Positions 19,602-40,562 of a stretch of DNA of 64,000 nucleotides are shown one piece after another. Each line of letters starts with the position of its first letter. Position 1 is the stretch's first letter. The notes under the pieces are model-generated. The model saw nothing but the letters and a program-made list of their open reading frames with translations, had not been told where the DNA came from and did no database searches. This DNA is from Paraburkholderia sp. IMGN_8 (GTDB lineage Bacteria; Pseudomonadota; Gammaproteobacteria; Burkholderiales; Burkholderiaceae). The stretch lies in contig NZ_CP150900.1 of assembly GCF_038050405.1 (NCBI RefSeq), forward strand, positions 3,100,001-3,164,000. Reading direction: 5' to 3'. Both the position numbers and the translations under genes were made by a program.

Positions 19602-22600
19602 TCACCGGCCATTCGTCAAGCGGCCGGTGTCGCTCGCCGTGCGGCGCTCACGCCGCTCGCCGCGCCTGCGATTGAGCTCCGCAAGCCGCCGCCTGCCATG
19701 CGTGAGCGACGCGACCGCATGGAACGCGAGGGGTGCGAACACGAGCCCGAACAGCGTTGCAGCCAGCACCCCGCCGAACACGCCGGTGCCGATCGAGCGG
19801 CGACTTTCAGCGCCCGCGCCGCTCGACACCACCAGCGGCACGACGCCCAGCAAAAACGCCGCCGAGGTCATCACGATCGGCCGGAAGCGCGCGGCGGCGG
19901 CCTCGGTCACCGCGCGCGTCAACGGCAAGCCGCGCTGATGCAGATCGCGGGCGAACTGCACGATCAGAATCGCGTTCTTCGCCGCGAGACCAATCACGGT
20001 AATCATGCCGACCTTGAAATAGACGTCGTTCGGCATGCCGCGCAGCAGCACCGCGGCCACCGCGCCGACCACGCCGAGCGGCACCACCATCAGTACCGAA
20101 AGTGGAATTGTCCAGCTTTCGTAGAGCGCGGCGAGCGCCATGAACACCGCCAGCAGCGACAAACCGATCAGCAATGGCGTGAGCCGCGCCGCCGCGGTTT
20201 CTTCGCGCGCCGCGTCGACCCAGTCATAGCCGATGCCCTCCGGCAGCGTCGCCGCGAGCCGTTCCATCTCGGCCATCGCCGCACCGGAACTATGACCCGG
20301 CGCCGCGCGGCCGCTGACGTCGAGCGACGGATAACCGTTGTAGCGGCTCAGCATCACCGGACCGATGGTCCAGTGGCGCGTCGCGATCGCCGAGAGCGGC
20401 ACCATCCCGCCCGTTGCGTTGGGCACCGCGAGCGCCATCAGATCGTCGTCGGTCATGCGTGCGGCGGCGTCGGCGGCGATCATCACGCGGCGCATGCGGC
20501 CGCCGGCCGGAAAATCGTCGATGTAGGTCGAGCCGAACGTGCTGCCCAGCACCTCGGCAATGCGCTCGAACGGCACGCCGAGCGCGTACGCCTTGGCACG
20601 GTCGATATCGAGCTCGACGCGCGGCGCGTCCGGCAAATCTTCGGAGTGTATCGAGGTCAGCACCGGACTCGCCTTGGCCTGCGCGAACAGCTGCTCGCGC
20701 GCCGCCTTCAGCGCGTCCACGCCGATCCCGCCGCGATCTTCGAGCCGGAACACGAAACCGTCTGAATGCCCAAGACCCGGCACCGAAGGCGGCAATTGCG
20801 CTTGCACATCGCCGTCGATAATCTTGTCGAACTGCTCGTTGAGCTTATCGCGCAACGCCAGCGCGCCAGTGTCGCGCTTGTCCCAGTCCTTCAGTTCGAC
20901 GAAGGCCATCGCCACATTCTGACCGCTGCCGGTAAAGGTCCAGCCGATCACGCTGGTGATATTCGAAATCGCCGGCTCGGCATGCAGAATTTTTTCCATG
21001 CGCTCGACCACCGCCAGCGTGCGCGCCTGGGTCGCGCCAGCAGGCAACTGGACCGTCACCTGCAACTGGCCTTCGTCTTCGCTCGGTAGAAAGCCGCCGG
21101 GCATTTGCCAGTACAGCACGCCGCACACGCCGACCAGCACCGCATAGATCGCCAGCATCGGTCCGACGCGGCGCAGGGTGCGTGCTGTGAGTCCGCGATA
21201 ACCGCTCGCGGCGCGATCGAAACCGGATGTGAAACGGCTCGCCGCTCGCGCCGCAAAACCGCGCAGGCCGCGGCGCGCGTCGCGCTGATGAACCGTCTGC
21301 TTGTGCGCCTTCAGCAGATTCGCGCACAACGCGGGCGTCAACGACAGCGCCATGAACGACGACACCAGCATCGACGCGATCATCGCTACCGCGAACTGCC
21401 GATAAATACCGCCGACGCCGCCAGGAAAGAACGCCATCGGCACGAACACCGCCGTCAACACCGCGGTCACGCCGATGATCGCGCCGCCGATCTGCGACAT
21501 GGCGCGGCGCGTGGCCTCGCGCGGCGGCAAGCCCTCGTCTTCCATCACGCGATGCACGCTCTCGACCACCACGATCGCATCGTCGACGAGAATGCCAATC
21601 GCCAGCACTAGGCCGAACATCGTGAACACGTTGATCGACAGACCGCACACATACATCGCGAGAAATGCGCCCATCAGCGTGACCGGAATCACCACGGTCG
21701 GCACCAGCGTGTAGCGCAGATCGCGCAGGAACAGCCACATCACGAAGAACACCAGCACTACGGCTTCGAACAGCGTCACGAGCACTTCGTGAATCGCGAT
21801 CTGCACGAAATGCGCGTTGTCGAAGGGGATTTCGATAGCGACGCCAGGCGGCAAACGTTTCGACAGTTCGGCGAGCCGCGCGCGGATCGCAGTGGACGTT
21901 TCAAGCGCATTGCCGCGCGGGCCGAGCTGAATGCCGACGGTAGCCGCCGCTTTGCCGTTCAGGCGCGACCAGTACGAATAATTGTCGCGGCCGAGCTCGA
22001 CACGCGCGACGTCGCGCAAGCGCACCGCCGAGCCGTCGGGCCGCGCCTTCAGCACGATCTGGCCGAACTCGGCGGGCGAGATCAGTTGACCCTTCACGCT
22101 CACCGAGGCGTTCAATTGCTGCCCCGCGACGAACGGCGCGTCGCCCAGCGTGCCCGCCGTCACCGTGGCGTTTTGCGCGGCGATCGCGGCGTTCACTTCG
22201 GCGGCGCCCAGGCCGTACTCGCGCAACTTCATCGGGTCGAGCCAGATGCGCAGTGCTTCGTCGGCGTCCCACAACTGGGCGGAGCCCACGCCGGGCGCGC
22301 GCTTCAGTTCGCGCATCACGTAGCGGCTCAGATAGTCGCTCAATTGCACGGAATCGCGCGTACCGTCGGTGGACGTAAGCGCGACCAGCATCAGGAATGT
22401 GTTGGCCGCCTTGAACACGCTGATGCCCTGCTGCACGACCTGCTGCGGCAGGCGCGACTCGATCTGCTTCAGGCGGTTCTGAACGTCGACCATCGCGAGA
22501 TCGGGATTGGTGCCGGGCGCGAACGTCACGTCGATCTCGAGTTCGCCGAGGTTATCGCTGGTGGTTTCGTAGTACAGCATGTTGTCGGCACCATCGAGAC

Positions 22601-22802
22601 TCTCCTCGATGATGCTGCCGACGTTCGCGTCCACTACTTCAGTCGACGCGCCTGGATAGGTGGCGCTGATGACCACGCGCGGCGGCGCGAGGCGCGGATA
22701 CTGCGCAACCGGCAGTTGCGGAATAGCAAGCGCGCCCGCCACGACAATGGCGAGCGCGACGATCCATGCGAAGACTGGGCGGTCGATGAAAAAAAATGGC
22801 AC
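19602..22802 (-). CDS. RND efflux permease (HAE1/AcrB-type)
   Basis: 1066 residues with the internal duplication of RND pumps: one membrane helix, a periplasmic porter domain and five helices, repeated. Helix 4 carries GILVDDAIVVVE with the two proton-relay aspartates, and the second half carries GLAAKNAILIVQFARD with the partner lysine, so transport should be proton-driven. The N-terminus FFIDRPVFAWIVALAIVVAG is typical of HAE1 proteins. It would expel amphiphilic compounds from the periplasm and inner membrane. No adaptor (membrane-fusion) or outer-membrane channel gene is next to it. The start is 12 bp after an acetyltransferase gene, placing it last in a nine-gene minus-strand unit. Confidence 0.92.
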   Translation of the reverse strand: MPFFFIDRPVFAWIVALAIVVAGALAIPQLPVAQYPRLAPPRVVISATYPGASTEVVDANVGSIIEESLDGADNMLYYETTSDNLGELEIDVTFAPGTNPDLAMVDVQNRLKQIESRLPQQVVQQGISVFKAANTFLMLVALTSTDGTRDSVQLSDYLSRYVMRELKRAPGVGSAQLWDADEALRIWLDPMKLREYGLGAAEVNAAIAAQNATVTAGTLGDAPFVAGQQLNASVSVKGQLISPAEFGQIVLKARPDGSAVRLRDVARVELGRDNYSYWSRLNGKAAATVGIQLGPRGNALETSTAIRARLAELSKRLPPGVAIEIPFDNAHFVQIAIHEVLVTLFEAVVLVFFVMWLFLRDLRYTLVPTVVIPVTLMGAFLAMYVCGLSINVFTMFGLVLAIGILVDDAIVVVESVHRVMEDEGLPPREATRRAMSQIGGAIIGVTAVLTAVFVPMAFFPGGVGGIYRQFAVAMIASMLVSSFMALSLTPALCANLLKAHKQTVHQRDARRGLRGFAARAASRFTSGFDRAASGYRGLTARTLRRVGPMLAIYAVLVGVCGVLYWQMPGGFLPSEDEGQLQVTVQLPAGATQARTLAVVERMEKILHAEPAISNITSVIGWTFTGSGQNVAMAFVELKDWDKRDTGALALRDKLNEQFDKIIDGDVQAQLPPSVPGLGHSDGFVFRLEDRGGIGVDALKAAREQLFAQAKASPVLTSIHSEDLPDAPRVELDIDRAKAYALGVPFERIAEVLGSTFGSTYIDDFPAGGRMRRVMIAADAAARMTDDDLMALAVPNATGGMVPLSAIATRHWTIGPVMLSRYNGYPSLDVSGRAAPGHSSGAAMAEMERLAATLPEGIGYDWVDAAREETAAARLTPLLIGLSLLAVFMALAALYESWTIPLSVLMVVPLGVVGAVAAVLLRGMPNDVYFKVGMITVIGLAAKNAILIVQFARDLHQRGLPLTRAVTEAAAARFRPIVMTSAAFLLGVVPLVVSSGAGAESRRSIGTGVFGGVLAATLFGLVFAPLAFHAVASLTHGRRRLAELNRRRGERRERRTASDTGRLTNGR

Positions 22803-22814
22803 GCAAAAATCCGT

Positions 22815-23363
22815 TCAGATGGCGAGGAAGCTCGGTGCGTCGGCGAGACGGGCCATATGCAGCGCATCGGCCAGTATGCCGTCGCGCATCGCGTAGCCGC
22901 GCGACACGCCTTCTTCGACGAAGCCGAACTTGCGGTATAGCGCGATCGCCGGTGTGTTGTCCGTGAACACCTGCAGTTCGAGGCGGCGCAAACCGAGCGA
23001 CGCATCCGCGGTTTCGGTCAACGCGCGCAGGAGCGCCGTGCCGACACCGCGCCCATGATACGCGTCGTGCACGGCCAATCCTAACTCGGCGCTATGCGCA
23101 CGGCACGGCCGAAATACCGTAAGCCCGGCGTGCCCCACCATGCGACCTTCCAGCCATGCGCACACGCTTACACTGCCTTTGAGGTGCCGTTCGTGCCACG
23201 CGGCGATTTTTTCGGCGTTGCGATAACCGACTGACAGCGTGCCGCGCCGCACGCCGGGCAGGCTCATGATCTCGGCGAACGACGCCATATCGGACTGTTC
23301 AAGCGCCTTGATCGTGATGCGGCTCTCCACTGCCGGGTCGCTGTGCAAGGTTTGATCGTTCAT
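22815..23363 (-). CDS. GNAT N-acetyltransferase, YhhY-like (second copy)
   Basis: 182 residues from ATG at 23363 (an in-frame ATG at 23381 would overlap the previous gene). The acetyl-CoA binding motif A is clear: LGLAVHDAYHGRGVGTALL, with motif B VFTDNTPAIALYRKFGF. The pattern around SLGLRRLELQVF and YAMRDGILADALHMARL matches E. coli YhhY, which acetylates free amino acids such as Phe and Met. Its substrate here is unknown. It is a paralogue of the gene just upstream, and both lie between the TldE-like protease and the RND pump, with gaps of 4 and 12 bp. Confidence 0.82.
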   Translation of the reverse strand: MNDQTLHSDPAVESRITIKALEQSDMASFAEIMSLPGVRRGTLSVGYRNAEKIAAWHERHLKGSVSVCAWLEGRMVGHAGLTVFRPCRAHSAELGLAVHDAYHGRGVGTALLRALTETADASLGLRRLELQVFTDNTPAIALYRKFGFVEEGVSRGYAMRDGILADALHMARLADAPSFLAI

Positions 23364-23367
23364 GGTC

Positions 23368-23973
23368 TTATTCCGCGGCAATGTTCGGTGTCGACAGTGA
23401 TAACTGCGCTGCAGTTGACGGCGTCGACATGAACGGCGCCGCCTCGCGCAGCCGCGCCATGAAGAAGCAATCGATCAGCACGCCGCCGCGCAACACCGCG
23501 CCGCGTTGCCGCGCTTCGACCTCGAAGCCGAACTTGCGGTACAACGCGAGCGCCGTGTGGTTATCGGCGAACACGTGCAACTCGACACGGCGCAGGCCGA
23601 GCCAGTTGTCGGCCACATCGAGCAGTTCGGTCATCAGCGCATTGCCGATGCCGCGCCGATGCCATGCGTCGTGCACGCAGATGCCGAGCGAGCCGGCATG
23701 CGAGCGGCGCCCCTTCGAAGGCGTCAGTTCCGCTTCACCGACCAGCGTGTCGCCGATCGTCGCCGCGATCACGATCTCGCTGGGTTCGAGCTTTTCGATG
23801 TATTCGCGCGTGCTGGCAAACGACTGAAACGGCGGGTGCGGATTGCCATTCACCACGACCGGCAGTTGCTGCATCGCGTGGAATGGCTCGGCGTCGGCCG
23901 CGCGCAATGCGCGCAGCGTCAGACCCTCGGGCAAGCTCTCAGGTTTGGATTTTGTTTTTATGTGTTGATCCAT
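23368..23973 (-). CDS. GNAT N-acetyltransferase, YhhY-like (first copy)
   Basis: 201 residues, a single GNAT domain at about 18-175. SLGICVHDAWHRRGIGNALM is the acetyl-CoA loop (R-x-x-G-x-G type), and VADNWLGLRRVELHVFADNH plus ALYRKFGFEVEA follow the YhhY pattern closely. GEAELTPSKGRRSHAGS gives the beta4 strand and its turn. The C-terminal 25 residues (MSTPSTAAQLSLSTPNIAAE) are an extra low-complexity tail. The gene begins 4 bp after the TldE-like gene and ends 4 bp before its paralogue, so it is part of the same transcript. Acetylation of an amino acid or peptide product released by the upstream proteases is a reasonable but unproven idea. Confidence 0.82.
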   Translation of the reverse strand: MDQHIKTKSKPESLPEGLTLRALRAADAEPFHAMQQLPVVVNGNPHPPFQSFASTREYIEKLEPSEIVIAATIGDTLVGEAELTPSKGRRSHAGSLGICVHDAWHRRGIGNALMTELLDVADNWLGLRRVELHVFADNHTALALYRKFGFEVEARQRGAVLRGGVLIDCFFMARLREAAPFMSTPSTAAQLSLSTPNIAAE

Positions 23974-23977
23974 AGGC

Positions 23978-25339
23978 TCATAACGTCAATTCAAAAGATC
24001 TCGCCAGAATGCCGGGTAATTGCATACCGCCGGTTGCGCGCTCTCCCCACGTGGAGTCGCTCAGCAGCAACTCGGGTTGCGCGCCGAGCTGTTCGAGCTC
24101 GCCACCGAGCAAGCGGTACAAGCTGTCGTCGAAACGCATCGCCTCGAGCGGCGCGACGATCTGCCCCTGCTCGACCCAAAAAGTCGCGAAGCGCGTCATG
24201 CCGGTCAGGCGGCAATTCATCCGGTCCGAGAAATTCACGTACCAGAGATTGCCGATGTAGAGGCCGGTATCGAGCTTCGCCAGCACGTCCTCTTCCGCCA
24301 GATCGCCGCCTTCCATCGAAAGCGTCGCCGGCGACTCGTTCGCCAGCGCGCCGTTGGGCGTCAAACCGTACTCGCGTGCGCTGCGGGCATTGGTCAAGCG
24401 CTCGGCGCTTCGCCCCGCCTGGATCAGCGGCACGCTTTCGCGCAGATAGCCGTCGTCGTTGAAGCCCGGCGTGATGCCGAGGTTCAGGTCTTCGCTCAAG
24501 CTCACACGCGGATCGAGCGCGACTTCGCCGGTGTGCAGTTTGTACAACTCGCTGCGCGAGCTCGCTTGCGCCCGCGCGGAGAATCCGCTCCATGCGGTCA
24601 CGCCGAGCAATTCAGCAAGCGCCGCGGGCGCCAGATACGAGCGATAACGCCCCGGCGCCAACGCGCGCGGCATACGCGCGAGCACGGCGAGGCGTGCCGC
24701 CGCCTGCTCGACTTTGCGCGCGAAGGTGGCATCGCTCCAGTCGTCGCCGGCATAGGTCGTTTTGATCGCCCGGCCGCTCGGGTCGTACAGCGACCAGCTG
24801 AAATTGAAGTTGTCGACTTCGTACCAGCCGCGGCTGCCGCTGGTGGACGCGAAGCCGCGCACGATCGTGCCGCCCGCGTAAAAGCCGACGAAATCCAGCC
24901 CCTGCGCGCATTCGGCGACAGTGCGCAACAAGCCCTGCGGGTCCGGCAGCTTGCCGGAACGCTGCGTGGCCCGCTGCCATTGCGACGTATCGAACAACAG
25001 ATGTGGATCGTCCGCCGCATCGCGCAAGCCATCGCGCAAGGTGGCGAGCGCCGCGCTCACTTCGCCGAGATCCTGTTGCAGGTCGCCGCATACGGTCAGC
25101 GTCGAATAGGCCTGACGTGCGCCGTCGATCAACCGCAAGGTCAGCTTGCCTTGCGACACGCTGCCGATCTGCCGCACCTTGCCCGCGTTGAAGCGAATAA
25201 AGTCGGACTGCTCGCCCGCAAACGAACTCAGCGTGGCTTCGCCACCTTGTTGCAAGCGCTCGATCGCATCGGCCAACGACGTGAAATGCTGCTGCCAGTC
25301 GAGCGATGCACCGGCCCGCGAGGACATGAATTGGCTCAT
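23978..25339 (-). CDS. TldE/PmbA-like protein
   Basis: 453 residues. The start ATG at 25339 shares a base with the stop of the TldD-like gene (TGATG). The fold pattern of the TldD/TldE (PmbA/U62) family is visible: RFNAGKVRQIGSVSQGKLTL near the N-terminus, PAALAELLGVTAWSGFSARA in the middle, and LYIGNLWYVNFSDRMNCRLT with ATFWVEQGQIVAPLEAMRFD near the end. TldE lacks the metal-binding HExxxH and forms a heterodimer with TldD; both degrade unfolded peptides and mature some microcins and other modified peptides. This copy is coupled to its TldD-like partner and sits behind yejABEF, unlike the usual stand-alone housekeeping tldD and pmbA. Confidence 0.85.
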   Translation of the reverse strand: MSQFMSSRAGASLDWQQHFTSLADAIERLQQGGEATLSSFAGEQSDFIRFNAGKVRQIGSVSQGKLTLRLIDGARQAYSTLTVCGDLQQDLGEVSAALATLRDGLRDAADDPHLLFDTSQWQRATQRSGKLPDPQGLLRTVAECAQGLDFVGFYAGGTIVRGFASTSGSRGWYEVDNFNFSWSLYDPSGRAIKTTYAGDDWSDATFARKVEQAAARLAVLARMPRALAPGRYRSYLAPAALAELLGVTAWSGFSARAQASSRSELYKLHTGEVALDPRVSLSEDLNLGITPGFNDDGYLRESVPLIQAGRSAERLTNARSAREYGLTPNGALANESPATLSMEGGDLAEEDVLAKLDTGLYIGNLWYVNFSDRMNCRLTGMTRFATFWVEQGQIVAPLEAMRFDDSLYRLLGGELEQLGAQPELLLSDSTWGERATGGMQLPGILARSFELTL

Positions 25340-26775
25340 CAGGCGCCTCCGAACACGTCGACGTTGCTGAACACGCATGCAGGCGATGCATGACCGACGC
25401 GAATGATCTGCGCCGGTTCGCCCTTGCCGCACATCGAGGTGCCGTACACCTCGCGCGTGCCCGCATTGCCCACCGCGCTCAGACTGCGCCAGAAATTCGC
25501 CGAGATGCCGCGATAATTCGGCTGCTTCACCACCTGCGTGAGCTTGCCGTTTTCGATCAGCTGGCCGAACTCGCAGCCGAACTGGAATTTGTTGCGATGG
25601 TCGTCGATCGACCACGAGGTGTTGGTGCGCATCAGAATGCCGTGTTCGATGTTGCCGATCATCTCGTCCAGCGAGCTATGGCCGGGCTCGATGTTCAGAT
25701 TCGCCATCCGGTCGATCGGCGGCCGGTTCCAGTTCGACGCACGCGAATTGGCGACGCCGGGCATGTGCGCGCGCTGCTGTGAAAGCGCGCCGCCCAGCGG
25801 CCGTTCGAGCACGCCGTCGCGAATCAGATACTGTTTGTGCGCTTCTGTGCCGTCGTCGTCGAACGCGTAAGCGGCGGCTTCCTCGCGCAGCTCCGGGTCG
25901 AAGGTGACGTTCAGCAGTTCGGAACCGTAGCGGTATGAGCCGAACATCTCCTGCTTCACGAAGCTCCAGCCCGCGAAGTTGCGCTCGTCGCCGAGAATAC
26001 GGTCAAGCTCGAGCGGATGGCCGATCGATTCGTGAATCTGCAGCATCATCTGATCGGGCATCAGCAACAGATCGCGCCTGCCTGAAGGGCAATTCGGCGC
26101 GGCCAGCAGCTGCAATGCTTCGTTGGCGACCCGCACACCCGCGCCTTCGAAGCCGAAGCGCGCCAGGATTTCAATGCCGCCCTGCCCGAGCGTGCCGTAG
26201 TTGCCGCCGAGCGTGCGCACCTGGGTGTCGCCGTTCGCGTGCGCGGCCACGCTCAATTGCGGCATCACAAAGCGGAACTGCTGGTCGATCCGTACGCGGT
26301 CGCCGGTGATGTAGAGCTGATCGGCATGCGTGATCTGCACGCCCGCCACACGTTCGACAATACGTGTATCGAGATTCGCGCTCGCGCATTCCGCGCCCAA
26401 TCGGTCAAGCCATTCGGCCCGGCTCGGCAACGCGTGCTGCGCATTCGGTGACACATAACAACCGCTGACAGCCGGACGCACCACCTCGCGATGGTCGATC
26501 AAAGACAGCACTGCGCTCGCTTCCGCGCGCGCCGTCGCTATATCGAGCGCCGCCTGCAAGCCGGCGGCGGACAGATTCGCCGTGGCCGCATAGCCCGCTC
26601 CCGCGCCCACCCATGCGATCAGCATCGCGCCGCGATCGCGCACCGTGCGCAGCGGCTGCGCGATGTCATTGCGGATTTCGTGGTCGTCGATCTGTTCATC
26701 GACGATGCGCAGCGACCAGAACGCCGCGCGGCTCGTAAGCGTGCGGGCGGCTTGCGCCCAACGTTCGTCAATCAT
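25339..26775 (-). CDS. TldD-like metalloprotease
   Basis: 478 residues from ATG at 26775 (MIDERWAQAARTL). The zinc motif HExxxH is intact as QIHESIGHPLELDRI near residue 246, and the C-terminal region carries the conserved GVANSRASNWNRPPIDRMAN and GHSSLDEMIGNIEHGIL, with cysteine in MCGKGEPAQIIRVGHASPAC near the end. TldD is the catalytic half of the TldD/TldE protease, whose narrow active-site tunnel takes extended peptides. The gene begins 25 bp after yejF and is coupled to the TldE-like gene. The context points to cleavage of peptides brought in by YejABEF. Confidence 0.87.
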   Translation of the reverse strand: MIDERWAQAARTLTSRAAFWSLRIVDEQIDDHEIRNDIAQPLRTVRDRGAMLIAWVGAGAGYAATANLSAAGLQAALDIATARAEASAVLSLIDHREVVRPAVSGCYVSPNAQHALPSRAEWLDRLGAECASANLDTRIVERVAGVQITHADQLYITGDRVRIDQQFRFVMPQLSVAAHANGDTQVRTLGGNYGTLGQGGIEILARFGFEGAGVRVANEALQLLAAPNCPSGRRDLLLMPDQMMLQIHESIGHPLELDRILGDERNFAGWSFVKQEMFGSYRYGSELLNVTFDPELREEAAAYAFDDDGTEAHKQYLIRDGVLERPLGGALSQQRAHMPGVANSRASNWNRPPIDRMANLNIEPGHSSLDEMIGNIEHGILMRTNTSWSIDDHRNKFQFGCEFGQLIENGKLTQVVKQPNYRGISANFWRSLSAVGNAGTREVYGTSMCGKGEPAQIIRVGHASPACVFSNVDVFGGA

Positions 26776-26800
26776 TCGAGGTTCCCGTATGAATCTCTGT

Positions 26801-32615: not shown

Positions 32616-32658
32616 GTAAAAAAGATCGCTCCGGCAATCCATCCGAAAAGCCGGAGCG
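32616..32658 (-). terminator. Rho-independent terminator of the TonB-dependent receptor gene
   Basis: On the minus strand CGCTCCGGC (32658-32650) pairs with GCCGGAGCG (32635-32627) across a 14-base loop and is followed by ATCTTTTTTA. It lies 30 bp past the receptor stop codon and separates the receptor transcript from yejA. Confidence 0.8.
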
Positions 32659-32687
32659 ACTCACGTACCACGCTCAGTAACTGGACA

Positions 32688-35426
32688 TCAGAACTTGTAC
32701 GTTGCGCCGATCTGGGCGAAGCGGCCAATGTACGTATACAGCGATTGGTCGTAGCCGTTCTGATCCAACGTACCATTCGCAAAGATCGGATCGTACGGCG
32801 GCGTCCGGTTGAAGATGTTGTCGATGCCGCCGAAGATCGTCCAGTTCTTGAAGCCCGTGTACGTCATCATCAGGTTGAACTGGCTGTACGATCCCACTCT
32901 GGTCGGCGCCGGCACCAGATTCTGCGCGTACGGCCCCGTGAACTGCCACGTCAACGCTGCGTCGAACTTGTGGTACGTCCAGTCCAGGGTAGTGTTGCCT
33001 CTCCAGCGCGGGAAGCTGCCGCCGAACGGCTGCGTGATGGTGAAGTTGTTACCTGCACCGTTCACCGGCGATCTACCCGGGAAGCCGATCTTGAAGCTGT
33101 CCACGTAAGCCCAGTCACCCGACAGGGTAAACGTACCGACCTTCGTCGGTAGCGCCTGGCGGAACGTGCCTTCGAAACCGTTCGTGTCGAGGTAGCCGAG
33201 GTTCTGGTACGGAATGACCTTGTACAGGAGGGCGCCCGTTGCCGGGTCGGTGACCACCTGCGAAGGCGAGCCCTGGCCGATCACGTTATCGACGCGAATC
33301 TTGTACCAGTCGAAGCCGACATCGGTCGTACGGGTCGGCGACAGCTGGAAGCCGATGTTGAAGTTACGCGTGCGCTCCGCCGCCAGTTTCGGATTACCCT
33401 CCGTGATCGAGGTGTAGTTCTGGCCGGTGTTCGGGTCCACCTGGATACCCATCGTTTGCGACTTGCTGTCTTCAACGAACGTCGGCGCACGGAAGCCGCG
33501 ATTGTACGAGGTGTACATCGTGAGCGCCTGAACCGGCTGATAGCGCAGCGCGAAGCGCGGCGAGAACGCACCGCCGACATCGCTGTAGTGGTCGTAACGA
33601 CCCGACTGGCTGAACGTCAGGTTACGCACAATCGGAATGTCAATCTGGTAATACACGGCCGCCACGTTGCGCTGGCCGTTCACCGTCTGGAGATTCGGAT
33701 TGGTGACCAGGCCTTGCTGGAATTCCGCACCCGGCGTGAGTACTTCGCTCTGGTGCGTGAACTGCGCACCGAAGCCGAGACCCACGTCGCCCGCCGGCAG
33801 ATGGAAGAGTTCCGGCGTCGACAGCGTCGCGTCAACGGTATCGAGCTTCGAGATACCCAGGTTGTTCGCGTCCATGTACAGCCCGTTGAACGCGTTCGGT
33901 GTCGCCGACGGATTCGCGAAATTCAGCGTGCCGTTCTGGTAAATGTCGGTCAGTACGGTGGGGTTCAGCTGGTTCGTGTAGGTGTTAGCGACCGTGCTTT
34001 GCGAGTGGCTGATCGACGTCGCCCAATCCCATTCGCCGTTCGGCAGGTCGAACGAGCCCTTGATGCCCGTGGACGCGCGCCAGTACGTGGCATACGTCTT
34101 TTCCGCTACCGTGTTCGGGAACGCATACGTGAGCGGCGTGGCAACGCCGAACGGGTTGTACGGGTTGCTCGCCGGCACCACCGTGTTGAACGGGGAAAGC
34201 AGCTTCGTCTGCGGATTCCACACAAGTGCGGGGACCTGCGGATTGCCGACAACGTTGTTCCACAGACCGTCGTTGGTGGTGGTCGTGTTGCTGCTGATCA
34301 GGAAGTCCCCGAACGCGGTCGTCTTATCGTTGATCTTGAAGTCGGCGTGAAGCTTCGCGTTCAGACGCTCGGTCATCGGCGCGATGGACATGCCTTCCGC
34401 GGTGTTGAAGCCGCAAACCGTGCCCGCCGATCCCGCAGTCAGCGAATTGGTGGCTGCAGGACGCACCGAACCGCCGAACGGACAGTTGCTCAACGCCTGC
34501 ACGCCGCCGCCGGGCATGCTCCAGTACGACGGCGCGAGCAACGAGAGACCGCCCGGCTGGTTGGTGAAATCCTGATTGCGCGTCGAGTCGCGGTCCGCGA
34601 GCGTGAAGCCATTTGACTTGTAGTAGCTCGCGGCGGCCGTAACGTTGAAGCGATCGGAGTTGAGATCGCCGAAGCCGCCGAGCACGCCGAATTTGGTCGT
34701 GCCGGCGCCACCGCCACCGTTGATGGCGCTGCCGTAGCTGCCATCGAGTTGCAACCCCTGGAAGTTGTGCTTCGTAATGATGTTGACCACACCCGCAATG
34801 GCGTCCGAACCGTACTGCGACACGGCGCCGGTCTTCACGATTTCGATGCGGTCGATGGAGTTCAACGGCAGCGTGTTCAGGTCGAAGAAGGAGTCGACGC
34901 TGTTCGAGAAGAACGCGAACGGCGCAACGCGCTGTCCATCCACCAACACAAGCGTGTATTTTTCGCTGAGGCCGCGCAGGGCGATACCCGCGGCGCCCGC
35001 GGCAAAGTTGCCGGACTGACCTTCGCTCCAGCTATTCGCCGAGTTGGCCGAGGTCGTGCGCAGAAAATCGGCGACGGTCGTGGCGCCGCTATTCACAATG
35101 TCTTTCTGCGTAACCGTCTGCACCTGATTGAAGCCGACCTTGTCGGAGCTGCGAATCAGTGAACCGGTCACTTCGAACTTCTTCAGTTGCTGGACGCCTT
35201 TGCCAGACGGCGTCGCGGTGTTGTTGTCCGCGGACGGCGTTGCAGCGGCGCCCGATGCGGGAGCCGCTGCCGCTGCCGGCGTGCTTTCCGTTGTCGTCGC
35301 GCCCGCCGCGGTTCCTGTCGTGGCCGGCTGGCTTTGCGCAAACGCCGGTACGGCGATTGCGGCCGACAACGCCAGTTCAGCCCAGATTATTCTTTTGATG
35401 GCCAGCGCCAATGCCCTTTGTTTCAT
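32688..35426 (-). CDS. TonB-dependent outer-membrane receptor
   Basis: 912 residues. A signal peptide (about 1-30, ending AFAQS) is followed by an Ala/Thr-rich low-complexity stretch (about 32-75) and KKFEVTGSLIRS, which begins the plug. The plug (about 82-215) has NSGATTVADFLRTTSANSAN, GIALRGLSEKYTLVLVDGQR and IVKTGAVSQYGSDAIAGVVN. The remainder is the 22-strand barrel, ending with the typical aromatic terminus (ATYKF). It takes up a ligand across the outer membrane using TonB energy. No iron-type partner gene is near, and its position between a TonB-ExbBD set and yejA suggests a peptide or peptide-like ligand. The ligand itself is not visible in the sequence. Confidence 0.92.
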   Translation of the reverse strand: MKQRALALAIKRIIWAELALSAAIAVPAFAQSQPATTGTAAGATTTESTPAAAAAPASGAAATPSADNNTATPSGKGVQQLKKFEVTGSLIRSSDKVGFNQVQTVTQKDIVNSGATTVADFLRTTSANSANSWSEGQSGNFAAGAAGIALRGLSEKYTLVLVDGQRVAPFAFFSNSVDSFFDLNTLPLNSIDRIEIVKTGAVSQYGSDAIAGVVNIITKHNFQGLQLDGSYGSAINGGGGAGTTKFGVLGGFGDLNSDRFNVTAAASYYKSNGFTLADRDSTRNQDFTNQPGGLSLLAPSYWSMPGGGVQALSNCPFGGSVRPAATNSLTAGSAGTVCGFNTAEGMSIAPMTERLNAKLHADFKINDKTTAFGDFLISSNTTTTNDGLWNNVVGNPQVPALVWNPQTKLLSPFNTVVPASNPYNPFGVATPLTYAFPNTVAEKTYATYWRASTGIKGSFDLPNGEWDWATSISHSQSTVANTYTNQLNPTVLTDIYQNGTLNFANPSATPNAFNGLYMDANNLGISKLDTVDATLSTPELFHLPAGDVGLGFGAQFTHQSEVLTPGAEFQQGLVTNPNLQTVNGQRNVAAVYYQIDIPIVRNLTFSQSGRYDHYSDVGGAFSPRFALRYQPVQALTMYTSYNRGFRAPTFVEDSKSQTMGIQVDPNTGQNYTSITEGNPKLAAERTRNFNIGFQLSPTRTTDVGFDWYKIRVDNVIGQGSPSQVVTDPATGALLYKVIPYQNLGYLDTNGFEGTFRQALPTKVGTFTLSGDWAYVDSFKIGFPGRSPVNGAGNNFTITQPFGGSFPRWRGNTTLDWTYHKFDAALTWQFTGPYAQNLVPAPTRVGSYSQFNLMMTYTGFKNWTIFGGIDNIFNRTPPYDPIFANGTLDQNGYDQSLYTYIGRFAQIGATYKF

Positions 35427-35801
35427 TTTTCCCCTTCTCGCTCGTCAGTAAGGCCACAGCTGTGTGTGAAGAGAGGTCTTGTGAACCTCTCCACTCGATA
35501 TACGGCGATCTTGCGCCGCGCTCCGTTAAAGTCGCCCCGCACCTTTCTGCCTCACAACCCGGCCACGCAATGCCGGAATTGCAAATGCATCCACACAGAC
35601 AGGACACTTCAAATAACTCAATATCGGACTACTTATTTATTACAAACGAAATGCGCAGCGCTTTCTAATTGTTTTCACTTCCAATACCACGAGTGATGGA
35701 GCGAACAACGTCCTCTCACCCGATCAACCCGCAATCGAACCTTAAGCAATGCTTACAAACACCGAGAGACTGCTTTCAACGAAAGCACGGAGCAAAGACA
35801 C
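35427..35801. other. AT-rich promoter region of the receptor gene
   Basis: 375 bp without a gene, clearly more AT-rich than its surroundings. It should contain the promoter and leader of the TonB-dependent receptor (read leftward). I see no Fur box. The TCAAA-N5-TTTGA motif found near the XRE gene and tonB is not present here. Confidence 0.5.
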
Positions 35802-36377
35802 CTAAAACAATCTTGGCGTGCCCACCCACACGACCACCGCTTCTTCGCGGGCCGTATTGGCCCAGGCGTGAGGCACGGTGGACTCGTAATGCGCAGTGTC
35901 ACCTGCCTGCAATACGAACGTTGTACCTTCTAACGTGAGCGATATCTGGCCGCTCATCACATACAAAAACTCTTCCCCTGCATGCGTCGTGACTTCCGAC
36001 GGATTTTGCCCCACCGGCATCCTGACGAGAATGACTTCCAGCTTGCTGCCGACCGACAGATTCGTCAGCCGTCCAAAAAGATTCGCGGTCCCGTCAAATC
36101 CGAAATACTTCAGCTCATTCCCTCTACGCACCGACTTGTCTTCGGTCGGCGTGTCGACGAAGTACTGCACCGTGACACCTAAAGCTCGAGCAATGCCGAC
36201 TAGCGATGTAATCGAAGGCGTTGCGTGCCCCCGTTCTACCTGCGACAAAAAGGGCTTGGAAATTCCCGCAGTTGTTGCCACCTCGTCCAGCGTGCGCTTG
36301 AGCCGTTGGCGAAGCGCGCGGATTTTGCTTCCTATAGAAACTGCGACCTGTGCCTTGTTATCGAGTGGCAAAACCAT
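35802..36377 (-). CDS. XRE-family regulator with C-terminal cupin sensor domain
   Basis: 191 residues if the ATG at 36377 is used. An N-terminal HTH_3 domain (IGSKIRALRQRLKRTLDEVA, then ISKPFLSQVERGHATPSITS) is joined to a cupin domain (about 115-190) with HAGEEFLYVMSGQISLTLEG and GDTAHYESTVPHAWAN. Such regulators (PuuR/SutR-like) sense small molecules and often repress uptake or catabolic genes beside them. A start further upstream (TTG at 36401) is possible, but TTGACT-N17-TATGGT there looks like a promoter that would overlap the reading frame start, so the true start could also be downstream of 36377. It lies between the TonB operon and the receptor, making it the likely regulator of both. 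Confidence 0.88.
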   Translation of the reverse strand: MVLPLDNKAQVAVSIGSKIRALRQRLKRTLDEVATTAGISKPFLSQVERGHATPSITSLVGIARALGVTVQYFVDTPTEDKSVRRGNELKYFGFDGTANLFGRLTNLSVGSKLEVILVRMPVGQNPSEVTTHAGEEFLYVMSGQISLTLEGTTFVLQAGDTAHYESTVPHAWANTAREEAVVVWVGTPRLF

Positions 36378-36397
36378 AGCAAGACAGAATCCCGTAG

Positions 36398-36425
36398 TCA
36401 AAATTAGTTTGATAAAACCAAACTA
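36398..36425. promoter_or_regulatory. Overlapping palindromes upstream of the XRE-cupin gene
   Basis: TAGTTTG-N7-CAAACTA (36405-36425) is a perfect 7-bp inverted repeat, and TCAAA-N5-TTTGA (36398-36412) overlaps it. They sit about 20-45 bp before the regulator gene and beside its probable -35 box, as expected of an autoregulatory operator. Confidence 0.55.
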
Positions 36426-36680
36426 TGTTTCATTGAGTGCAACGTCCTCCCTAAAACTCGCTCGATATGCCTGGTTGGTTATCGCCATGAGTGACTCAAT
36501 CAATGCGATGTCCGGGAGGCTTTCACACTTGCCGCAAACCGGCCGATGGTTGCGCACGCAACCAGGCCCGGTCATTGGCGACGGCCGCCGCTCCATACGG
36601 CGAACATGCGCCTCCCGGTTCAATGTCCGGATACCCTGGATGCACTTCGCCGGATGCGACATATCAGGAACAGGCTGCCG

Positions 36681-37886
36681 TTACTTCGACGCAACCAGCA
36701 CCCACAAACGGGCGAGGTCGGCCGAACCGTCGGTGCCCTTCACCGCGCGGAAGGTTTGCACTGCACGCGCTTTTTCGCCTGCGATGTAGTACGCCTCGCC
36801 GAGATGCAGTTGCGCCTGGTCCGGGTGATCGACTCCACCCTTCGCGATCGCTGCGTCCATTGCCATGAGACCTTGCTTGGTCTGACCGGCGAAGACCTGG
36901 TTGAAGCCGACGTCGACAGGTGCGACGGGGTTCGCGGGATCGACAGGTGCGTGCGCCCGTTTCGCGGCGAGCGCCTGCAACCGCTTCTCGCGATCCGACT
37001 GCGCATCGTGACCCAGAACGCCTGACGTAAAGCCCTGATCGATGACCTGTTTGCCTTCAGCCGTGGTACCCGCCACGATCGCGAGCTGGGTCATCTCCAT
37101 GTAGTCGTCGGCGGTGGTGAGCGAGCCGATCGCACGGCGCAGCCGATACGTGTCGATATCGAGCGCCGACGAATAGCCGGGCTTGCTGCGGATCGCAGTG
37201 AACAGATCGTCCCAGTAAGACTGCTTCGGATGATAGGCGACCAGCTTTTCGAGCGTGCTGCGGTAGGTCGCGTCATCTTTCACGCGTTGCGCGCAAGTGC
37301 CGAGCAATTGCAGCTGCGATTCGTCGGGTGCGTGACCGGCACGCACTTGCGCATCGACGCTCGGCTTAAGCAGGCTCACGACATTGCCGCAATCATTTGC
37401 CAGGTAGTAGGACTGCACAAGCAAAGTCCGCATGTCGGGATCGCTGCCGCCCGATTTCAGATAGCGCTGCGCGACCTTCGCTGCCTGTGCGTAGTTTTTC
37501 TGCTGGAAGTAGATGCCTGCGAGCGCCGCGGTGGTGCGCTGCTCGTCAGCGCCGCTCAAGCGTCCGGAACCCAGCAAGGTTTCGTAGGCTTGAGCAGCTA
37601 CGCCGGATTCGCCGGCTGCCGCAGCAGCAGCGCCGCGCATCTCCTGGACCATGTAGCTTTCATAGGGCGTTTTGCCCGCCACGGCATCCGCCTGATCGAT
37701 CTTCGTCAACGCATCCTTGTACTTGTGCGCGCGATACAAATCCTGCGCGGCGTTCAGCGGCTTCGCCACATCCGGCCGCAAGGTGTCCGCGGCATGAGAC
37801 GCGACCGGCAGCACGACGAGCGCAGACAGCCCTCCGACAGCGGCCGCAATGACGGCGCGCTTGAACCGTTGATGGATCGTTAGCAT
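36681..37886 (-). CDS. Secreted/periplasmic tetratricopeptide-repeat protein of the TonB operon
   Basis: 401 residues. A signal peptide (about 1-33, ending SHAAD) precedes repeated TPR-like helices: AAQDLYRAHKYKDALTKIDQ, ALAGIYFQQKNYAQAAKVAQ, and near the end HLGEAYYIAGEKARAVQTFR. It begins 9 bp after the second exbD gene, so it belongs to the same transcript. TPR proteins of this kind accompany some TonB-ExbBD sets and may link the energy complex to the receptor, but no activity is established for this one. Confidence 0.8.
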   Translation of the reverse strand: MLTIHQRFKRAVIAAAVGGLSALVVLPVASHAADTLRPDVAKPLNAAQDLYRAHKYKDALTKIDQADAVAGKTPYESYMVQEMRGAAAAAAGESGVAAQAYETLLGSGRLSGADEQRTTAALAGIYFQQKNYAQAAKVAQRYLKSGGSDPDMRTLLVQSYYLANDCGNVVSLLKPSVDAQVRAGHAPDESQLQLLGTCAQRVKDDATYRSTLEKLVAYHPKQSYWDDLFTAIRSKPGYSSALDIDTYRLRRAIGSLTTADDYMEMTQLAIVAGTTAEGKQVIDQGFTSGVLGHDAQSDREKRLQALAAKRAHAPVDPANPVAPVDVGFNQVFAGQTKQGLMAMDAAIAKGGVDHPDQAQLHLGEAYYIAGEKARAVQTFRAVKGTDGSADLARLWVLVASK

Positions 37887-37895: not shown

Positions 37896-38327
37896 CTATT
37901 GCATGTACTGCTCGTTGCCGATCAGGCCGATTTTCGTCGCGCCCAGTCGTTGCGCGGACGCCATCACCTCCGCGACGTCTTTGTACGGCACCAGCTTGTT
38001 AGGCCGCAGATGGATTTCCGCCTGGACCGGTTCGGCCGCCACCTGGGCCAGCCTGGATTCGAGCGCCGCCCGATTCGGCACAGGCTGGCCATTCCAGGTC
38101 GTGGTGCCGTCGAAATCGATATCGATTTGCACCACTTCCGGCTGCGTGATCGGCGGCGGCGGATTGCCGACCGGCAAGTTCATCTTGATGGCATGCGTCT
38201 GGATCGGAATCGTGATGATCAACATGATCAGCAACACCAGCATTACGTCGATCAGCGGCGTGGTGTTGATATCGACCATCACATCCGGTTCAGCACTGCC
38301 ACCGCCCGAAGATACGTTCATCCCCAT
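37896..38327 (-). CDS. exbD: ExbD/TolR-like biopolymer transport protein (second copy)
   Basis: 143 residues: short cytoplasmic N-terminus (DINTTPLIDVMLVLLIMLII, with the proton-carrying Asp in the membrane helix) and a periplasmic domain ending in ASAQRLGATKIGLIGNEQYM. ExbD works with ExbB to convert proton-motive force into TonB movement. It is the second of two exbD genes; a 107-bp gap filled by a dispersed repeat separates them, unlike the tight spacing elsewhere in the operon. Confidence 0.88.
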   Translation of the reverse strand: MGMNVSSGGGSAEPDVMVDINTTPLIDVMLVLLIMLIITIPIQTHAIKMNLPVGNPPPPITQPEVVQIDIDFDGTTTWNGQPVPNRAALESRLAQVAAEPVQAEIHLRPNKLVPYKDVAEVMASAQRLGATKIGLIGNEQYMQ

Positions 38328-38337
38328 AATCGTCTCC

Positions 38338-38437
38338 TGTCGACCAGAGTTAGCGCTTTAGCTGTCGGCCAGAGTTGGCGCTTTAGCGCTTACTCTGGTC
38401 CCATGCAAAGCACTTACTCTGGTCCCATGCAAAGCTA
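38338..38437. repeat. Dispersed short palindromic repeat between two exbD genes
   Basis: Partial, tandem copies of a unit with GAGTTAGCGCTTTAGC, then GCGCTTACTCTGGTCCCATG and CAAAGC. The fullest copy forms a hairpin (AGAGTTGGCGC/GCGCTTACTCT), and the last part is duplicated. The same unit occurs twice at 50483-50577. It touches the stop codon of the first exbD gene and fills most of the gap before the next. Confidence 0.8.
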
Positions 38438-38857
38438 GCCGCCGCGCGCGGGCGGCTCAGTGATAAATGAAACCTTGGCGATACCGGCGCGCTCGCACGC
38501 GGTAATGACCCGGCCGATGAATTCATAACGGGCGCTCTGGTCACCGCGAACGTGCACCTCCGGTTGCGGCGTCATGACCGACGCGGTTTTCAGGCGTGCC
38601 AGCAGCGTAGGCGCATCGACCTGCTTCTCGTTCCAGAAGAAATCGCCGTCGCGATTGACCGCAATGACGATACTTTTGGGCGTCGTTTGCAGCGGCTGGA
38701 TCGTCTCCTTCGGCAGTTGCACCGGCACCGTATGCGTCACCACCGGAATCGTGATCAGAAAGATGATCAACAGGACCAGCATCACATCGACGAGCGGCGT
38801 GGTATTGATACTGGAGATGACCTCGTCGTTATCTTCCTGCCCAACGCTCATAGCCAT
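38435..38857 (-). CDS. exbD: ExbD-like biopolymer transport protein (first copy)
   Basis: 140 residues with the same layout as the other copy: EVISSINTTPLVDVMLVLLI with the membrane Asp, a hydrophobic helix and a periplasmic domain (VHVRGDQSARYEFIGRVITA). Two different ExbD proteins beside one ExbB is a known arrangement in Xanthomonas-type and some Burkholderia-type TonB systems. It begins 12 bp after exbB. Confidence 0.88.
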   Translation of the reverse strand: MAMSVGQEDNDEVISSINTTPLVDVMLVLLIIFLITIPVVTHTVPVQLPKETIQPLQTTPKSIVIAVNRDGDFFWNEKQVDAPTLLARLKTASVMTPQPEVHVRGDQSARYEFIGRVITACERAGIAKVSFITEPPARGG

Positions 38858-38869: not shown

Positions 38870-39775
38870 TTATTGGGCCAGCGATGCTTCGCGAGCGGCG
38901 GCGCGTGCCGGGCGCCGGCTGCCTGCGAGCAATACGGTGTGCAGTTGCGCGCCGAAGGCCCGAACACGCTCCATCACCGACTTGTTGCGGCGAACCAGGA
39001 AGTTATAGCCGAGCACGGCCGGCACTGCCACGGCAAGACCGATCGCGGTCATGATCAGCGCCTCGCCCACCGGACCCGCGACCTTGTCGATCGAGGCCTG
39101 GCCGGCGATACCGATTGCCGTCAGCGCGTGATAAATCCCCCAGACCGTACCGAACAGACCAACGAACGGAGCTGTCGAGCCGACCGTGCCGAGGAAAGCC
39201 AGACCGTCTTGCAGACGATTCGACACGTTGGTGATCGCGCGCTCGACCGAGGTATCGATCCACGTATTGCGGTCGACGGCTTCGAGCAACGCTTCGTCAT
39301 GATGTTCGCCTGCTTCGATGGCCGTTTCCGCGATGAAGCGGAACGGCGACGATTCGTCGAGCCGCTTCGCGCCTTCGCTCAGCGACGGCGCGGTCCACAA
39401 TTGCTCGTCGGCGCTCTTCGCACGGCGGTTCGCGCGGAACTGCTCGAAGAACTTGGTGATCATGATGTACCAGCTGCCCATCGACATGAGCACCAGCAGA
39501 ATCAGCACGAAGCGTGCAACGAAGTCACCGTTCTTCCAGAGTGCGCCGAGCCCGTACGGGTTATTGACGGTTTCGGACGTGGCCGGCGCCGGCGGCGGCA
39601 CCGCTTCGTCCGCGGCCGAGCCGGCCGTTTGCGGCGCAGCGGCGGCCGGGGCAACTGCCGACGCGGTAGCGTCGCTAGCTTGCGCATGGGCCATTTGCGG
39701 TGCAACAAAGGTATCCACCGTGGTTACGGCGATCAACATGCTTGCCGCCAATGCGGCGAGAGTACGCTTCTTCAT
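38870..39775 (-). CDS. exbB: ExbB/TolQ-type proton channel protein
   Basis: 301 residues. A signal-peptide-like N-terminus (about 1-32) and an Ala/Pro-rich periplasmic stretch (about 33-70) precede the three-helix core of MotA/TolQ/ExbB proteins: FVARFVLILLVLMSMGSWYI, then LAFLGTVGSTAPFVGLFGTV and GEALIMTAIGLAVAVPAVLG. The extra N-terminal portion is longer than in E. coli ExbB but occurs in other ExbB proteins. It energises TonB with the two ExbD proteins. Confidence 0.92.
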   Translation of the reverse strand: MKKRTLAALAASMLIAVTTVDTFVAPQMAHAQASDATASAVAPAAAAPQTAGSAADEAVPPPAPATSETVNNPYGLGALWKNGDFVARFVLILLVLMSMGSWYIMITKFFEQFRANRRAKSADEQLWTAPSLSEGAKRLDESSPFRFIAETAIEAGEHHDEALLEAVDRNTWIDTSVERAITNVSNRLQDGLAFLGTVGSTAPFVGLFGTVWGIYHALTAIGIAGQASIDKVAGPVGEALIMTAIGLAVAVPAVLGYNFLVRRNKSVMERVRAFGAQLHTVLLAGSRRPARAAAREASLAQ

Positions 39776-39851
39776 GCCTGCTCCAAGTTCATTAGTACAA
39801 CTTCTAAACTAAGACTGATAAATCGCTACCGGTACCGAACAGCCTGTGGAT

Positions 39852-40562
39852 TCAGTTCAAGTTGAACGAGAACGGAACTTGCACACGGACAGCCTGGCCT
39901 TGGGAAACGCACGTGAACTGCTTGACCGCGTTGAACGCTGCGCGATCGAGTGAGGAATCGTCCGCAGACCTGGCAACGCGTTCATTCGTAATATGGCCCT
40001 GCGCGTCGACTACGAATTCAATCAGCACATCACCCGTCACGTTGTTTTCCTGCGCTTCCTTCGGGTAACGGATCGACGAACGGATCTGATCCGAGTTCGG
40101 GCACACAACCCCTACTTCGGCGCTCACGGGCTTGGCCGGCGCGGGAGGTGCCGGCGGTGCGGGCGGCGCCACGGCAGGTGCCGACACGACCGGTGCGGCC
40201 TGGTGTGTGATGGTCGGCTGCGGCGGCGTCTGCACCTGCACTTCCGGCGGCGGCACGAACGGCGGCGGCGGCGGTGCGAACTTCGGCGGCGGCAATTGCA
40301 CGGTCGGCAATGGCGGCGGCGGAGGCGGCTTTACCGGCTCGATGATTTTCGTTTCGATGGGATGCTGGATGACCTGCACGACCTTGGTGGCGAGGCCATT
40401 GATGAGCGCGTAGATCAACACGATGTGCAGGAGCAGAACGACTGCGATACCGCCGAAGCGGCGTACGGGGTTTTGCTGCTTACGCCCAAACTCGCGCGGG
40501 CGTCCTGGCCTCTCCATCCTGGCCACTGCTGCCGGAAATTGCCCTTCAACTTTCGTACCCAC
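39852..40562 (-). CDS. tonB: TonB energy-transducing protein
   Basis: 236 residues from a GTG at 40562, chosen because GGAGGAG lies 5 bases upstream; the longer frame to 40622 lacks such a site. One membrane helix (about 37-55, GGIAVVLLLHIVLIYALING) is followed by a Pro-rich periplasmic spacer (KPPPPPPLPTVQLPPP and more) and a C-terminal TonB domain (IRYPKEAQENNVTGDVLIEF, VDAQGHITNERVARS, FNAVKQFTC). It carries energy from ExbBD to outer-membrane receptors, presumably the one at 32688-35426. First gene of the tonB-exbB-exbD-exbD-TPR operon. Confidence 0.92.
   Translation of the reverse strand: MGTKVEGQFPAAVARMERPGRPREFGRKQQNPVRRFGGIAVVLLLHIVLIYALINGLATKVVQVIQHPIETKIIEPVKPPPPPPLPTVQLPPPKFAPPPPPFVPPPEVQVQTPPQPTITHQAAPVVSAPAVAPPAPPAPPAPAKPVSAEVGVVCPNSDQIRSSIRYPKEAQENNVTGDVLIEFVVDAQGHITNERVARSADDSSLDRAAFNAVKQFTCVSQGQAVRVQVPFSFNLN

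Follow-up and report, generated by a model that had tools for sequence, protein, structure and literature searches.

A TonB-dependent receptor, a Yej-type importer and a variable TldD/E-GNAT-RND cassette in Paraburkholderia: a putative scavenging system for peptide-type compounds

Sixteen genes in a row on the minus strand of Paraburkholderia sp. IMGN_8, from tonB to an RND efflux permease, raise the question of whether they serve one task and, if so, which. They occupy 19602-40622 of the stretch that we analysed, here called the window (64,000 bp, G000:C1:3100001-3164000, from a genome of 9.1 Mb in two contigs). A preliminary description of this DNA had drawn them as a single 21-kb path; open frames and Pfam domains matched every gene family that it had named from tonB to the RND gene, and open-frame reading bears out the shared orientation. 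Comparative genomics strongly supports the view that these parts form a set. At the core a TonB-dependent receptor gene adjoins yejABEF, and behind yejF the TldD/E pair, a GNAT pair and the RND permease form a mix-and-match cassette. On balance we favour the view that the putative island is a locally regulated scavenging system for peptide-type compounds made by other organisms.

The census of the genus carries the first part of this answer. Among 144 genomes, IMGN_8 included, YejA proteins fell into two clear classes, one with at least 67% identity to the window protein (module type) and one with about 52%, and the TldD paralogue was present in 89 genomes (E up to 1e-30). Module-type yejA was found at 90 sites in 82 genomes. 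At 71 of the 90 a tldD gene followed downstream on the same strand, mostly 3.76-3.86 kb away, which equals the length of yejBEF, and otherwise at 5.1 or 5.7 kb. The position of tldD behind yejABEF was called by this distance, and two tandem second yejA copies (G031, G094) are excluded from the 90. Both genes occurred in 76 genomes, yejA only in 6, tldD only in 13 and neither in 49 (Fisher p ~1e-19, genomes counted as independent and kinship uncorrected). The 19 sites without tldD include at least one at a contig end (G102:C120), four in loci without module-type yejF (L107, L110, L111, L112) and two that were not fetched (G116:C13, G102:C101). In the wider family, module-type yejA was found in 61 of 299 genomes and in 6 of 25 genera.

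We then compared 40 module loci gene by gene (L053-L072 and L261-L280, picked for tldD or yejA, in 20-kb stretches that cover the flanks partly). Eleven module families were present in 28-40 of them, and the commonest non-module family in nine. The preliminary description had asked whether yej and tldD are usually apart in relatives and had looked for an order that is kept without its flanks; the first is answered in the negative by the 71 of 90 sites, and the second holds within the partly covered flanks. In seven loci (L057, L060-L064, L071) a uvrA-like gene adjoins the XRE-receptor part with no match to the tonB set between them, and the energy set itself is therefore movable. The window also encodes a UvrA-like protein (41526-47456, 1976 aa) in which two UvrA interaction stretches were matched; a uvrA-like gene adjoins the module in the seven relatives.

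Shared neighbours also bear on where the compound comes from. We detected no non-module family of at least 60 aa in more than 9 of the 40 stretches, as would be expected next to a cluster for a self-made siderophore or ribosomally synthesized and post-translationally modified peptide (RiPP), again with flanks partly covered. A tie to self-made peptides was rejected on this ground. As the loci share no biosynthesis neighbour, the compounds more likely come from other organisms.

How constant is the module? We fetched 91 loci besides the window, of which 72 carry module-type yejF and 19 do not (15 lone tldDE pairs and 4 lone yejA-like genes). A receptor match stood before yejF in all 72 module loci, on the same strand in 62 and on the opposite strand in 10, and ExbB or ExbD matches were found in 43 of the 72 stretches. 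Behind yejF, the 57 genus loci carried tldDE-GNAT-GNAT-RND (38), tldDE-GNAT-GNAT (2), tldDE-GNAT2-RND (1), tldDE-RND (2), tldDE (2), RND alone (2) or nothing (10). The 15 loci of other genera carried tldDE-RND (5), RND alone (4), tldDE (2), GNAT-GNAT-RND (1) or no cassette gene (3). In G021, G053, G097 and G108 receptor-yejABEF and tldDE are both present but lie apart. Genes were tagged in these maps by tblastn (E up to 1e-5, covering at least 25% of the query), and diverged genes may have escaped notice. The loci were selected for tldD (L034-L073), as yejA sites without tldD or second copies (L103-L118), as 15 sites in other genera (L246-L260) and as 20 of 48 remaining genus sites (L261-L280). 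Since they were partly chosen for tldD, the cassette shares are not frequencies, and the 71 of 90 is the only figure free of locus picking.

The single 21-kb path thus stands in part. Its genes keep together, and similar toolkits occur in Pseudomonas and in another family, but TldDE, the GNAT pair and the RND gene vary independently of one another and a terminator splits the receptor from yejA. One fixed 16-gene operon was rejected on these two grounds. We regard it as very improbable that the locus has no common task and is a stack of independent import, protease and efflux genes. Such a stack would fit the occurrence of TldDE and RND without each other and of TldDE often alone; it is at odds with the adjacency at 71 of 90 sites, with the lack of a widely shared non-module neighbour and with the similar toolkits in Pseudomonas and in genome G459, described below.

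The nine genes from yejA to RND are tightly packed, with gaps of 4-25 bp or overlaps, as the preliminary description had stated. With start codons chosen by eye, we measured a gap of 8 bp for yejA-yejB, overlaps of 47 bp for yejB-yejE and 4 bp for yejE-yejF (counted from ATG 28426), a gap of 25 bp for yejF-tldD, a TGATG overlap for tldD-tldE, a gap of 4 bp for tldE-GNAT1, an overlap of 14 bp for GNAT1-GNAT2 (or a gap of 4 bp if GNAT2 starts at ATG 23363) and a gap of 12 bp for GNAT2-RND. A promoter that splits the yejF-tldD or tldE-GNAT1 junction, which the preliminary description had named as a point against a unit, was not found in a sigma-70 scan of 19300-36900, a weak test: the scan gave one promoter-like site against 3.6 expected by chance, and it lies at the start of the XRE frame (36401-36373). 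Upstream of yejA, the receptor-yejA gap holds a GC-rich hairpin, perfect over 10 bp, and directly behind it TCTTTTTT. This terminator parts the receptor from yejA, and the 21 kb are therefore not one simple transcript. Among relatives, a loose rule found a hairpin with a T-rich tail in this gap in 26 of 58 entries, many of the 26 weak-tailed, and none in 32 (the entries are 57 stretches and the window, with two plasmid loci counted twice under two ids).

A 21-bp palindrome just upstream of the XRE-cupin frame is a candidate operator. Within the 64 kb, on both strands, a related pattern with up to three mismatches hits only here, against 0.03 expected hits, and the strict form also stands before tonB in Burkholderia stagnalis (L123:2586 and L127, which are one record twice). 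That the XRE-cupin protein controls the module is a guess. The intergenic region between the XRE and receptor genes (35427-35801) is matched in as many as 29 of the 67 loci searched and may be a regulatory region or a small gene. Of 44 small open reading frames screened in the module gaps, five recur in 12-29 of the 67 loci, all of them in the XRE-receptor and tetratricopeptide repeat (TPR)-XRE gaps, and this recurrence may be plain DNA conservation. An Rfam scan of 17000-42500 gave no matches at gathering scores.

The protein classes and their predicted membrane places are established from sequence matches, and they outline a possible route into the cell. A receptor with plug and barrel is encoded together with TonB, ExbB and ExbD in the same locus, and in the PDB its plug best matches receptors for siderophores, colicin I and B12. 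The window YejA best matches 7z8e, 4ony, E. coli YejA (8fsr) and the Cu-methanobactin binder MbnE (5icq, E 2.8e-95; the role of MbnE is taken from the literature). By PDB matches and the literature, YejA relatives are binders of peptides or peptide conjugates, and S. meliloti YejA and MbnE are treated together in PMC10128002. YejF reached 609.6 bits against the NCBIfam YejF model, below the cutoff of 834, which places it as a Yej-like paralogue outside the NCBIfam microcin C transporter equivalog. The locus fits the wider definition of a Yej-type peptide importer, with an SBP_bac_5 protein that has YejA/MbnE matches, two permeases and a double ATPase with oligo_HPY.

In the cassette, the TldD/E pair is likewise set apart from the well-known family members. 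The module TldD carries HESIGH. In an alignment of 14 TldDs of the subfamily, neither the HExxxH motif nor two late Cys (C440 and C458, numbered by the first row) vary. With an adjoining TldE, this is the sequence signature of a TldD/TldE metalloprotease. In E. coli TldD the metal is held by the two His together with a late Cys, and E. coli TldD/E is a heterodimeric HExxxH metalloprotease that trims unfolded and modified peptides, as PMC5810440 describes. The module TldD matched the TldD structure 5nj5 at 5.3e-22; against the NCBIfam TldD models it scored 89.6 bits (cutoff 635) and 72.5 bits (cutoff 513). Judged by these cutoffs, module TldD/E is a distinct subfamily, set well apart from canonical TldD. 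The best match of the module TldD in a plasmid collection is from B. stagnalis, at ~77% identity. The IMGN_8 genome has three PmbA_TldD_1st places, two of which outscore the module copy and are taken to be canonical TldD and PmbA. YejA is matched twice in this genome at E up to 1e-60. The module therefore looks like an extra set, and housekeeping Yej and TldDE were rejected for it, as other copies are present in the genome. The two GNATs are paralogues (38% identity), and the best solved match of GNAT1 is PA1377 (2vi7). The RND permease scored 1338.6 against the NCBIfam RND_permease_1 cutoff of 1250 and is of the HAE1 class, with relatives in the AcrB/MexB class.

On the scavenging reading, we infer the order of the chemical steps, the type of ligand, the XRE-cupin control and a safety-valve role for the GNATs and the RND pump. 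A TonB-dependent receptor specific for the ligand would take up the compound with energy from the TonB-ExbB-ExbD set. From the YejA-type binding protein it would pass to YejBEF and so to the cytoplasm, where TldD/E would cut its peptide part and free amino acids, a bound group or both. A harmful released part could be acetylated by the two GNATs and expelled by the RND pump, both steps being optional.

The likeness to methanobactin and siderophore systems also fits another purpose, metallophore recovery. Here a peptide carrier loaded with metal, whether the cell's own or foreign, would enter through the receptor, YejABEF would import it, TldD/E or acetylation would free the metal, and the RND pump would recycle the carrier. 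We hold this to be possible, with the lesser share of our confidence. The MbnE-like YejA and the receptor plug matches speak for it. Exchange of receptors, which seems to occur here as well, is known for siderophore receptors. P. aeruginosa SppR-SppABCD is called a putative xenosiderophore transporter in the title of a paper cited in PMC12728205. The regulatory regions point the other way: the best Fur-like box upstream of the receptor or tonB has 8 mismatches of 19, as in shuffled sequence, and none occurs in the window at 3 mismatches. The Fur consensus used finds only 2 distinct sites genome-wide, and the lack of a box near the module is therefore a weak negative; iron control was set aside as showing no sign in a weak test. 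Metallophore recovery also has no conserved biosynthesis gene next door, though a foreign carrier would need none.

The receptor gene seems to have been swapped between loci that are otherwise much alike. Among 348 locus pairs with closely similar neighbours (YejB at least 94%, TldD at least 90% identical), receptor identity was 50-55% in 1 pair, 55-65% in 184, 65-75% in 16, 75-80% in none and at least 80% in 147. Over these pairs the identity of GNAT1 ranges from 65% upwards without a break, and that of GNAT2 forms two humps (65-70% and 80-85%) with no empty gap. Compared with the window, the receptors of L272, L275 and L280 share 88-92% identity over residues 1-100, 63-66% over the next 200 and 37-63% in later windows to the last residues. 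These protein windows stand in for nucleotide BLAST, which gave single long matches that did not resolve the breakpoints. The simplest reading is that receptor alleles have been exchanged by recombination behind the N-terminal extension. Such swapping would fit selection for a change of ligand, or for evading phages or bacteriocins.

Among ten genes measured, the GNATs and the receptor change fastest, with a median pairwise identity of 59-60% against 71-91% for the other seven. This is also what might be expected if resistance came first, with a competitor's peptide antibiotic drawn in, destroyed by TldD/E and acetylated, and the remainder expelled. Acetylation by GNATs and efflux by RND pumps are reportedly usual routes of protection. 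Microcin C is among the compounds that Yej systems import, as is phazolicin in S. meliloti. We consider detoxification as the primary function improbable: a cell would protect itself more simply by losing the importer, a dedicated importer driven by TonB is a high price for defence alone, and the core exists without TldDE, GNAT and RND in the 10 genus loci and 3 loci of other genera counted above.

Do other lineages hold the same set? At the order level, TldD of the module subfamily was found in 37 of 399 genomes, and 23 of these tldD loci were fetched. One, L083 in G459 from another Burkholderiales family, holds the toolkit: exbB-exbD-exbD-tonB, a receptor, GNAT-tldD-tldE and a Yej/Opp-like ATP-binding cassette (ABC) importer, with differing directions. 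ExbB/ExbD are 59-70% identical to those of the window and the ABC proteins only 26-45%, and the GNAT is of a different kind. Opp/Yej-like permeases were matched in L085 and L092 and ExbB/ExbD-like genes in L122, and the rest have none of these. In L085:1-13760 we noted TldDE with an Opp-like ABC importer, one peptidase each of the M3 and S9 type and a major facilitator superfamily (MFS) transporter, which looks like a peptide-use operon. On the P. aeruginosa plasmid CP124675 the order is tldD-tldE-ABC exporter-tonB-exbB-exbD-receptor-yejABEF-membrane fusion protein-RND-GNAT, and its YejA is 100% identical in CP109684 and CP109756. This version (L126 and relatives) sits on large plasmids near a mercury-resistance transposon. 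Spread of the full module over the class was rejected: the plasmid YejA matched 36 of 369 genomes (E up to 1e-120), and a receptor lay beside yej at 0 of 20 fetched sites, some of whose stretches are short or cut by contig ends. In a Pseudomonas-centred scan, of which the best 80 of at least 578 relatives were kept, many loci (L141:9875-14316, similar in L128-L207) have TldD/TldE of this subfamily followed by a gene resembling MdtD-type MFS transporters, often near bet-like genes; these names were given by eye from the sequence of three loci. Receptor-yej relatives were found in 5 of the 50 Pseudomonas genomes searched, which hold 50 of those best 80 loci.

A TldD tree of 112 sequences, built by a quick method and rooted at the midpoint, with 40 of its 109 inner branches open, joins the Burkholderiaceae module TldDs and the lone genus TldDs in one clade with support 100. 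The lone genus TldDs form groups of 12 and 3, and the group of 3 is nested among module rows (support 100). The simpler story is that the group of 3 left the module, and the group of 12 likely left it too, as far as the tree can tell. The P. aeruginosa plasmid TldD groups with 19 lone rows from the best 80 of the Pseudomonas-centred scan (SH-aLRT support 100). As its TldD falls in a Pseudomonas clade and Pseudomonas also has receptor-yej sets without tldDE, the parts were therefore joined separately in Pseudomonas. The Paraburkholderia, P. aeruginosa plasmid and G459 assemblies are thus similar toolkits and not one inherited block. That similar parts lists recur in other gene orders suggests that the module works as one system.

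Several findings weigh against a joint scavenging task. Besides the loci with nothing behind yejF, 19 of 90 genus tldD sites are not beside module-type yejA (15 were fetched and are lone pairs; 4 were unfetched, some at contig ends). At the order level, 20 of the 23 loci have no Opp/Yej-like permease match. A receptor match beside tldDE was found in 0 of the best 80 Pseudomonas-centred loci, and the five Pseudomonas genomes with receptor-yejABEF showed no tldDE within the fetched stretch. Between the three assemblies the GNATs are not closely related (25-40% over parts of their length). We did not detect a membrane-fusion or outer-membrane partner of the RND permease among the 20 window proteins scanned (17272-47456), and the strict palindrome occurs in only 6 of 101 fetched loci.

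Two side observations concern peptide genes in Burkholderia. On plas2 of B. stagnalis a possible RiPP cluster (L127:35128-42973) lies ~5 kb away from the module and encodes an insulinase, three radical-SAM proteins, a protein of 55 residues and AzlCD. In Burkholderia terrae BS001 confronting a fungus, four genes called peptide-antibiotic maturation peptidases, for which TldD/TldE work is cited, rose, as PMC5209427 reports.

A receptor joined to a peptide-type ABC importer is already known, from SppR-SppABCD and from methanobactin uptake. SppR-SppABCD is said to encode a TonB-dependent receptor with a peptide-type ABC importer; compared by description only, it differs in that it is not known to include TldD/E, a GNAT pair or RND. 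Methanobactin MbnT-MbnE reportedly pairs such a receptor with a YejA-like binder, the one whose structure the window YejA matches, whereas the window has a full YejABEF, a protease, GNATs and a pump, and no sign of copper or methanobactin. The microcin C system (YejABEF, peptidases, the MccE acetyltransferase) shares Yej import and intracellular peptide degradation. Acetylation and export reportedly serve as protection there, but its host parts are said to be scattered and the toxin to enter by a porin, whereas the window groups a dedicated receptor and its energizer with TldD/E, GNATs and RND. The NppA1A2BCD system of P. aeruginosa and S. meliloti YejABEF are Yej-type importers of peptide antibiotics; the difference is that they are not known to have a dedicated outer-membrane receptor or processing cassette. 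A transposon sequencing study of S. meliloti reportedly found no outer-membrane route for phazolicin. E. coli TldD/E belongs to the same HExxxH metalloprotease family and differs in that the window copy falls far below the NCBIfam TldD cutoffs. The combined TldD/E, GNAT and RND cassette with receptor-yej was not found in titles and abstract beginnings of the open-access literature, nor was an open-access paper found that joins YejABEF, a TonB-dependent receptor, an acetyltransferase and a peptide.

The features are collected in Table 1. The gap between the two ExbD genes (38328-38434) contains short repeated units of the GCTTTGCATGGGACCAGAGTAAG and TAAAGCGCYAACTCTGGYCGACAG type and is perhaps a repeat element.

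Table 1. Features of the tonB-to-RND locus, in window coordinates.
Feature	Coordinates	Strand	Basis and remarks
TonB	39852..40622	-	Pfam TonB_C 3.7e-16; longest frame; start uncertain: GTG 40562 (as in the preliminary description) or ATG 40517
ExbB	38870..39775	-	Pfam MotA_ExbB 1e-32
ExbD copy 1	38435..38857	-	Pfam ExbD 2e-28
ExbD copy 2	37896..38327	-	Pfam ExbD 1.4e-25; 36% identity to copy 1
TPR protein adjoining the TonB-ExbBD set	36681..37886	-	Pfam TPR_16 1.1e-10; export signal by eye
Candidate operator palindrome TAGTTTG-N7-CAAACTA, just upstream of the XRE frame	36405..36425		
XRE-cupin transcriptional regulator	35802..36401	-	Pfam HTH_3 3.4e-13, Cupin_2 4.9e-17; start uncertain
TonB-dependent receptor	32688..35426	-	Pfam Plug 3.4e-19, barrel (TonB_dep_Rec) 1.4e-37
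Intrinsic terminator, receptor-yejA gap	32618..32658	-	Perfect hairpin and T run
YejA-type solute-binding protein	30553..32457	-	Pfam SBP_bac_5
YejB-type permease	29492..30544	-	Pfam BPD_transp_1 2.5e-34
YejE-type permease	28423..29538	-	Pfam BPD_transp_1 2.8e-32, OppC_N
YejF-type double ATPase	26801..28426	-	Pfam ABC_tran, 2 stretches, and oligo_HPY
TldD paralogue with HExxxH (HESIGH)	25339..26775	-	Pfam PmbA_TldD_1st and 3rd
TldE paralogue	23978..25339	-	Pfam PmbA_TldD_3rd 5.4e-24
GNAT acetyltransferase 1	23368..23973	-	Pfam Acetyltransf_1 9.8e-18
GNAT acetyltransferase 2	22815..23381	-	Pfam Acetyltransf_1 4.5e-21; start perhaps 23363
HAE1-type RND efflux permease	19602..22802	-	Pfam ACR_tran; NCBIfam RND_permease_1

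Taken further, the locus might be a general device to take in and disarm. Peptide antibiotics or peptide-linked weapons of competitors would be pulled in through swappable receptors, the carrier cut by TldD/E, and the payload acetylated and effluxed, turning a Trojan horse into food or metal, with the cassette put together anew in different lineages to fit the payload. We regard this extension as rather doubtful. The scavenging system that we favour would name a concrete means by which peptide-type natural products are used among bacteria, a route from receptor to cytoplasm with a protease, acetyltransferases and a pump. It would also supply an import partner for the poorly characterized TldD/E paralogues, and the swapped receptor alleles may offer a way towards the ligand.

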